Positions 3,256-5,940 of a DNA stretch of 5,940 bases are shown piece by piece; position 1 is the stretch's first letter; each line of letters begins with the position of its first letter. The stretch spans positions 1 through 5,940 of the forward strand of contig PEWQ01000205.1 of the NCBI GenBank assembly GCA_002780065.1, in the 5' to 3' direction. The DNA comes from Candidatus Hydrogenedentes bacterium CG07_land_8_20_14_0_80_42_17. Lineage in GTDB: Bacteria > UBA8481. The notes beneath the pieces were generated by a model, which was given only the letters and a program-made list of their open reading frames with translations, was not told the DNA's origin and did no database searches. The position numbers were made by a program, and so were the translations under genes.

Positions 3256-3351
3256 ATGCCCTGTGGCAAGAAACGCCTCAAACATAAGATGGCAACTCAT
3301 AAGCGCCGTAAAAAGCGCAGAGCTAATAGACATAAGAATAAAAAGGTTTAA
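3256..3351 (+). CDS. 31-residue highly basic protein, likely ribosome-associated
   Basis: An ATG at 3256 opens a 31-codon frame ending TAA at 3349-3351. The product is built almost entirely of Lys, Arg, His and a few small residues: MPCGKKRLKHKMATHKRRKK, then RRANRHKNKKV. A strong AAAGGAGGT (3237-3245) lies 11 nt upstream of the ATG. From memory, it closely resembles a family of about 30-residue proteins with the pattern MPxGKKRKxHKxATHKRKKR found in Bacteroidota and other phyla. Such tiny basic proteins (compare mycobacterial bS22 and bL37) sit in rRNA pockets, so a ribosomal role is likely but not shown here. Its last codons form the start of the first 51-bp repeat unit. It is too short for most gene callers. 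Confidence 0.8.
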   Translation: MPCGKKRLKHKMATHKRRKKRRANRHKNKKV

Positions 3352-3493
3352 TTGGAATGGCGTGTAGGGGCAGACCTATGTGTCTGCCCTGAAAAGGTTT
3401 AATTGGAATGGCGTGTAGGGGCAGACCTATGTGTCTGCCCTCAAAAGGTTTAATTGGAATGGCGTGTAGGGGCAGACCTATGTGTCTGCCCTG
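3341..3493 (+). repeat. Three tandem copies of a 51-bp unit, each with a perfect hairpin
   Basis: Units lie at 3341-3391, 3392-3442 and 3443-3493 and are identical except for the last base (G, C, G). Each begins AAAAGGTTTAATTGG and contains GGGCAGAC-CTATGT-GTCTGCCC, an 8-bp perfect stem extended by a G-T pair. The first 11 bases are the end of the 31-residue gene, including its TAA. The same AAAAGGT appears once more at 3503-3509, where it is the upp ribosome-binding site, so short homology flanks the array. The hairpin core preceded by GTAGGGG resembles a dispersed intergenic palindrome known from many environmental genomes (recollection). Near-identity suggests recent tandem expansion. Confidence 0.95.
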
Positions 3494-3501
3494 ACTTTTT
3501 T
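3470..3501 (+). terminator. Third repeat hairpin followed by a T-tract (weak terminator or attenuator)
   Basis: Only the last of the three hairpins (GGGCAGAC...GTCTGCCC, ending near 3491) is followed by a T run: TTTTTT at 3496-3501, about four bases after the stem. It could attenuate readthrough from the upstream operon into upp. The distance from stem to T-tract is longer than ideal, so efficiency is probably partial. Confidence 0.35.
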
Positions 3502-5284: not shown

Positions 5285-5314
5285 TTGACAAAATCGATTA
5301 AAATGAATTAAACT
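5285..5314 (+). promoter_or_regulatory. Sigma70-like promoter for the small-gene pair
   Basis: A consensus -35 TTGACA (5285-5290) is followed 18 bp later by TAAACT (5309-5314), which matches TATAAT at four positions. Transcription would start near 5321, giving a short leader before AAGGAG at 5328-5333 and the ATG at 5338. It lies in the short gap divergent from recO, so it points at the three overlapping ORFs to the right. Confidence 0.55.
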
Positions 5315-5337: not shown

Positions 5338-5418
5338 ATGAAGGTTCTACAATCGGCCGAAAAAAATATGAAGCCGATGTACAGGGAGGCTGAAGATGGG
5401 TTTTCAGGAAAAGATTAG
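5338..5418 (+). CDS. 26-codon leader ORF overlapping the 84-residue gene
   Basis: ATG at 5338 with AAGGAG upstream (AGGAG at 5329-5333, 4-nt spacing) opens a 26-codon frame ending TAG at 5416-5418. The peptide is MKVLQSAEKNMKPMYREAED, then GFSGKD: charged, with no hydrophobic segment. Its last 23 bases overlap the next gene in a different frame, and the ribosome-binding site of that gene (AGGGAGG, 5383-5389) lies inside it. It could be a real leader peptide coupling translation to the next gene. No attenuator hairpin or run of regulatory codons was seen. Whether the peptide itself matters is unknown. Confidence 0.5.
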   Translation: MKVLQSAEKNMKPMYREAEDGFSGKD

Positions 5419-5650
5419 CGCGTATGCCGTGCTAAAAGGGCCTGATACAAGGCCTGAGACAAATCCTTCATTTATTGCCGCATCATTTCGTAGGAATGTT
5501 TCTATGAATATTGCCACTGAAACTTTAGGCCAAAAGATAGCTGGAGCTGAGTCAGAACGGCTAGTAAGAATTCCGGTTGAAAACGATAAATTAGAGTCGG
5601 TCCGTTCCGAAACAACTCGGGTTGGACTCAATATTTCGAAAAGAGCATGA
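5396..5650 (+). CDS. Small hypothetical protein A of a paralogous pair
   Basis: An 84-residue soluble, charged protein of unrecognised family. ATG at 5396 follows AGGGAGG (5383-5389) with 6-nt spacing. Its core AVLKGPDTRPETNPSFIAAS plus FRR (residues 11-33) aligns without gaps to residues 19-41 of the next protein, sharing GPD, TNPS, A and FR at identical spacing. The C-terminal VGLNI (76-80) also matches IGIAV there. No signal peptide, membrane helix or Cys is present. The pair is therefore a tandem duplication that has diverged strongly. Function is unknown. A structural or adaptor role cannot be told apart from regulation on this evidence. Confidence 0.75.
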   Translation: MGFQEKISAYAVLKGPDTRPETNPSFIAASFRRNVSMNIATETLGQKIAGAESERLVRIPVENDKLESVRSETTRVGLNISKRA

Positions 5651-5664
5651 ATTAAAGGACTGCA

Positions 5665-5694
5665 ATGAAAAAGGAACACGGAGGTAATAAATGA
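5665..5694 (+). CDS. 9-codon mini-ORF overlapping the next gene start (ATGA)
   Basis: ATG at 5665, preceded by AAAGGA (5654-5659) with 5-nt spacing, encodes MKKEHGGNK and stops at TGA 5692-5694. The stop overlaps the next ATG as ATGA. The codons GGA GGT inside it form the Shine-Dalgarno sequence of the next gene, so its presence may simply follow from that site. The matching arrangement before the first paralogue makes it worth recording as a possible coupling ORF. Confidence 0.3.
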   Translation: MKKEHGGNK

Positions 5695-5915
5695 TTTTAG
5701 GATTTTACACAGCAAGTTCTACTGAAAAATATTTAACGACGAAAGTTATCTTGTCGGGCCCGGATAACATTAATAACACTAATCCATCCGTTCTTGCAAA
5801 AACTTTTCGAGAATCTTCTGCCTTGGAAATAACTAATAATTTTGGTGAAGACTTGATGATAAGTCAAAATTCAAAAGAATCCGGAATTGGCATTGCGGTG
5901 GACGTCAAGGCTTAA
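5691..5915 (+). CDS. Small hypothetical protein B of a paralogous pair
   Basis: A 74-residue protein paralogous to the upstream 84-residue one. Shared features are the hydrophobic strand VIL (19-21), GPD (23-25), TNPS (30-33), FR (39-40), an Ile at 47, and a C-terminal beta-like GIGIAV (65-70). Protein B has an N-terminal extension of about eight residues and lacks the charged 15-20 residue stretch between the core and C-terminus of protein A. ATG at 5691 follows GGAGG (5680-5684) with 6-nt spacing. There is no Cys, signal peptide or membrane helix. The family is unrecognised, and the array may continue to the right of the window. Confidence 0.75.
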   Translation: MILGFYTASSTEKYLTTKVILSGPDNINNTNPSVLAKTFRESSALEITNNFGEDLMISQNSKESGIGIAVDVKA

Positions 5916-5940
5916 TTAACGATATTCGTATCTCTGCTAA

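Follow-up and report, generated by a model that had tools for sequence, protein, structure and literature searches.

Do the two small open reading frames at the very end of this contig represent a genuine protein family, and what could such a tandem pair do for its host? The stretch analysed here (the window) is an entire 5940-base contig (C21) of the draft genome G000, which comprises 2.39 Mb in 207 contigs. It was compared with G001, the only other genome of the phylum among those searched, which belongs to the same order and to a different family. A sequence-only reading had described two adjacent genes with strong ribosome-binding sites, a common motif and overlapping leader ORFs, and had proposed an uncharacterised, lineage-specific small-protein family with a conserved translational-coupling layout. 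Both genes, here P1 and P2, are present with the lengths and ribosome-binding sites described (Table 1), and the motif GPD-x4-TNPS-x2-A-x2-FR is an exact, ungapped match in both.

Table 1 Features of the P1/P2 locus in the window and of its counterpart in G001.
Feature	Sequence	Position	Strand	Description
Promoter (putative)	Window	5285-5314	+	Sigma-70-like, TTGACA-18-TAAACT; upstream of the pair; consensus scan 10/12
Leader ORF	Window	5338-5418	+	26 aa; SD AAGGAG; 23-nt overlap with P1 start; probably incidental
P1	Window	5396-5650	+	84 aa, TNP-core family; SD AGGGAGG; homologous to P2 and Q1; orthologue of Q1; codon-position conservation
Mini-ORF	Window	5665-5694	+	9 aa; ATGA overlap with P2 start; sequence not conserved; probably incidental
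P2	Window	5691-5915	+	74 aa, TNP-core family; SD GGAGG; paralogue of P1, likely orthologue of Q2
scpA 3′ end (...LAEIRISLIKP*)	Window	5905-5940	-	Cut by contig end; 27/28 bases match the scpA end on G000:C49
Q1	G001, L014	13495-13710	same as Q2	71 aa
Q2	G001, L014	14090-14302	same as Q1	70 aa
scpA	G001	14533-15384	-	Follows the Q1/Q2 pair

BLASTP aligns P1 with P2 at an E value of 1e-7 across 52 residues, and none of 5000 shuffles reached their local alignment score of 71 (shuffled mean, 24.6). When the whole of G000 was searched with either protein, the query itself ranked first and the other paralogue second (E about 0.002); the next-best match of P1 had an E value of 0.5, and the two proteins are each other's only significant match. 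By these measures, P1 and P2 are true paralogues whose resemblance goes beyond chance. The similar C-terminal strand described for the two proteins held up weakly, as the pattern G-[LI]-x-[IV] emerges only in the multiple alignment, where its G is invariant.

The same tandem pair is carried by G001 (Q1 and Q2). When all reading frames in 19 kb were searched with a profile that contained only P1 and P2, Q1 (E = 6.8e-7) and Q2 (E = 1e-4) were recovered and nothing else of significance, the next match standing at 0.28, and all six pairwise comparisons among the four proteins exceed 5000 shuffles each. Q1 is the closest relative of P1 (33% over 48 residues, ungapped), while P2 and Q2 have K-[IV]-[IV]-L-[SG]-G-x-DN in common. 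By BLASTP, P2 scores better with Q1 than with Q2, so its assignment as the counterpart of Q2 depends mainly on gene order.

Alignment of these four sequences, which are all the known members, reduces the core to L-x-G-x-D-x4-TNP and a later R. Positions identical in all four (P1 numbering) are M1, L13, G15, D17, T22, N23, P24, R32, and G77; three residues of the motif first proposed vary, namely the P in GPD, the S that follows TNP, and the F that precedes R. The R sits 7 residues past TNP in each of the four in one alignment, while a second alignment places a one-residue gap in Q2. The combination by which we propose to define a TNP-core tandem family, namely this core followed by R, a tandem arrangement, and a location beside scpA, was found in both genomes of the phylum.

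Identity at codon positions 1, 2, and 3 was 0.40, 0.67, and 0.33 between P1 and P2, 0.53, 0.53, and 0.20 between P1 and Q1, and 0.45, 0.64, and 0.29 between P2 and Q1. In both genomes, the GC3 of the pair tracks that of the genome's other genes (about 0.32 for the window and about 0.7 for G001). On the evidence of their codons, P1 and P2 are genuine genes that evolve under purifying selection. By comparison, identity between G000 and G001 is 52% for ScpA and 65% for TrpS, which indicates that the TNP-core family diverges faster.

Each of the two genomes holds two copies at one locus. Further copies elsewhere, which the sequence-only reading had suggested looking for, were found in neither genome by profile or motif-pattern searches; additional motif-pattern hits (G001:C103, G001:C106, and G000:C202) were discarded as they do not lie within similar small proteins. 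Among about 385 spread-out genomes (386 searched), the four-sequence profile had matches in G000 and G001 only. Weak matches in G091 and G023 (E = 0.04–0.1 over 98 genomes) found no support in the profile search and were attributed to chance. Scans of genome contigs matched J006 alone, the isolate whose record is matched by contig C57 of G001 (RFFU01000027.1, 'MAG: Candidatus Hydrogenedentota bacterium isolate J006').

Searches of Pfam, NCBIfam, PHROGs, and PADLOC returned no significant profile match for the family. The best family match was BAG, at an E value of 0.19 and for one member only, which we regard as chance. A profile search of the PDB gave 0 chains at E values up to 10, and a literature search found nothing relevant to the pair. 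The earlier statement that no known family is recognisable is thus borne out in Pfam, NCBIfam, PHROGs, PADLOC, and the PDB. Together with the homologous tandem pair in G001 and the signs of purifying selection, these results uphold the proposed family: the pair is a genuine, lineage-restricted, uncharacterised small-protein family.

A toxin-antitoxin or other mobile two-gene cassette might also consist of small tandem genes, and in the window P1 is basic and P2 acidic. However, P1 and P2 are homologous to each other, their chromosomal position is fixed in two families with exactly one locus per genome, and searches of PADLOC, PHROGs, phage records (with P1 as query), and IMG/VR viral contigs gave no match. 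We consider such a cassette extremely unlikely, and a phage or mobile origin was rejected on the phage-record and IMG/VR results.

The translational-coupling layout, in contrast, was not upheld. In the window, each start is overlapped by a leader ORF with its own SD (26 aa at P1 and 9 aa at P2), and within the window alone the layout is suggestive. In G001, Q1 lacks an overlapping leader and that of Q2 is an unrelated 62-aa ORF, so leaders are kept in neither sequence, length, nor presence. Shuffled upstream sequences, in which the gene's own SD was kept, produced an SD-bearing ATG leader in 2% of cases for P1, 5.8% for P2, 4.5% for Q1, and 11% for Q2. The leaderless Q1, the unrelated Q2 leader, and these rates do not support conserved translational coupling. 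Leaders that regulate P1 and P2 by coupling or attenuation, as a selected feature, would account for SD-bearing overlaps at 2/2 starts in the window and 1/2 in G001, with shuffle rates of 2%, 6%, and 11%, but the shuffle test was devised after the layout had been seen, Q1 has no leader, and the three leaders (26, 9, and 62 aa) are unrelated in sequence. This regulatory role is therefore quite unlikely, and a search of the leaders against Rfam matched no RNA element.

The 41-nt gap between P1 and P2 in the window suggests a single transcript from the putative promoter at 5285. Q1 has a promoter-like counterpart at the corresponding place in G001 (TTGACA-17-TACACT). Another promoter-like site lies between Q1 and Q2, so co-transcription may not be general.

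On its other side, the pair is bounded by scpA. The final 36 bases of the window, on the minus strand, read as an ScpA C-terminus, LAEIRISLIKP followed by a stop, and overlap the 3′ end of P2 by 11 nt. A flagellin start had also been considered for the contig end and was replaced by scpA. The Q1/Q2 pair of G001 is followed by scpA and then trpS, both on the minus strand. Both pairs lie tail-to-tail with scpA, the fixed neighbour in both genomes, while the upstream neighbours are not shared: the window has a RecO-like gene there, and G001 has a tRNA-Val and a flagellin gene. In G000, scpA was found once, on C49, which bears trpS too; there (C49 1-1264, L002), scpA is followed by a gene resembling that of an AAA ATPase instead of the P1/P2 pair. 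Because the one scpA found in G000 has a different gene after it, the scpA end on C21 probably belongs to a strain variant of the C49 locus, or the two arrangements differ by an insertion between the pair and scpA.

Elsewhere in the window, positions 3341-3494 hold three 51-bp tandem copies (98% match), each with an inverted repeat GGGCAGAC...GTCTGCCC, directly 3′ of a small basic gene. A very basic 31-aa ORF at 3256-3351 (MPCGKKRLKHKMATHKRRKKRRANRHKNKKV) presumably resembles AURKAIP1/COX24-type small ribosomal proteins.

The order pair-scpA-trpS, kept in both genomes, together with the basic character of three of the four proteins (pI 9.7 for P1, 11.6 for Q1, and 11.5 for Q2), could point to an accessory of SMC-ScpA chromosome organisation or to a nucleoid protein. 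We regard this as unlikely: the pair converges with scpA and so lies outside the scpA operon, P2 is acidic (pI 4.8), DNA-binding or SMC-related families were not matched, and a gene order shared by two members of the same order says little about function. It appears very unlikely that the two proteins form an essential, phylum-defining two-component complex of novel fold with a functional tie to ScpA-SMC chromosome organisation.

A flagellar accessory role draws on the flagellin-domain matches in both genomes (7 in G000 and 9 in G001, several in open frames of 528–934 aa) and on the divergently oriented flagellin gene that lies upstream of Q1 at a distance of about 1.1 kb. It is nonetheless improbable, given that a tRNA-Val separates this flagellin gene from Q1, that the flagellin of G000 whose N-terminus is most similar (C93) is located elsewhere, that no similar proteins occur near the other flagellin genes inspected (the family occupies one locus per genome), and that FlbD is separately present in both genomes. 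A link through FlbD or flagellin neighbours was rejected. As a separate observation, a 99-aa ORF with a good SD lies directly upstream of a flagellin gene in G001 (L014 12402-12701, minus strand).

Structure prediction was conducted with AlphaFold in two runs, with P1 and Q1 as query and the four-row alignment as input. Both models show an N-terminal helix, a GxD...TNP loop, a helix from residue 24 to 48-51, and an unstructured tail. Confidence was low, with a mean pLDDT of 56 and a pTM of 0.32 (P1) and 0.28 (Q1), so the fold and any association are guesses; the start of the helix from residue 24 scores best, at about 70–74.

As a tentative explanation, held at well below even chances, we propose that the pair is ancient and vertically inherited, and that its small cytosolic products bind each other by way of a TNP-capped helix in a small accessory complex for housekeeping. 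A gene duplication would have preceded the divergence of the two families, a sequence of events that we infer, and both copies would have stayed beside scpA, so that the family would be long established in, and apparently confined to, a single candidate phylum. P1 and P2 would be small, soluble, and cytosolic, as neither a TM stretch nor a signal peptide is apparent by eye. The invariant L-x-G-x-D-x4-TNP turn, after a short N-terminal segment, is predicted to cap a 25–28-residue helix bearing the invariant R, followed by a variable, probably flexible tail in which a G close to the end is conserved. This long capped helix may be the contact surface through which the two paralogues would bind each other and a common partner. 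Homology, selection, and gene order are observed, whereas fold, interaction, and role are inferred, and our confidence in this explanation is accordingly low. The small number of sequences and the unlike charges of the four proteins (P2 acidic, the others basic) also count against it.

With these results, a phylum of bacteria represented here by two genomes gains a small-protein family with good support. Small conserved genes of this type are routinely overlooked or nameless. Two tandem genes that have held their position in both families must serve some host need, and the motif from four sequences lets others recognise and test the family.

Among known systems, FlbD (PF06289) is similar in size to P1 and P2, and the gene content of both hosts marks them as flagellated. 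An NPD motif is present in some FlbD proteins. However, the PF06289 model did not match P1 or P2, and the genuine FlbD genes occupy other loci in the two genomes and lack the TNP core. In kind, the pair is like taxonomically restricted (orphan) small-protein families, which are likewise shorter than 100 aa, under purifying selection, confined to one lineage, and unmatched by described families. As a kind of thing, such a family is not unusual; P1 and P2 differ from it in being tandem paralogues with a fixed neighbour in both genomes of the phylum.
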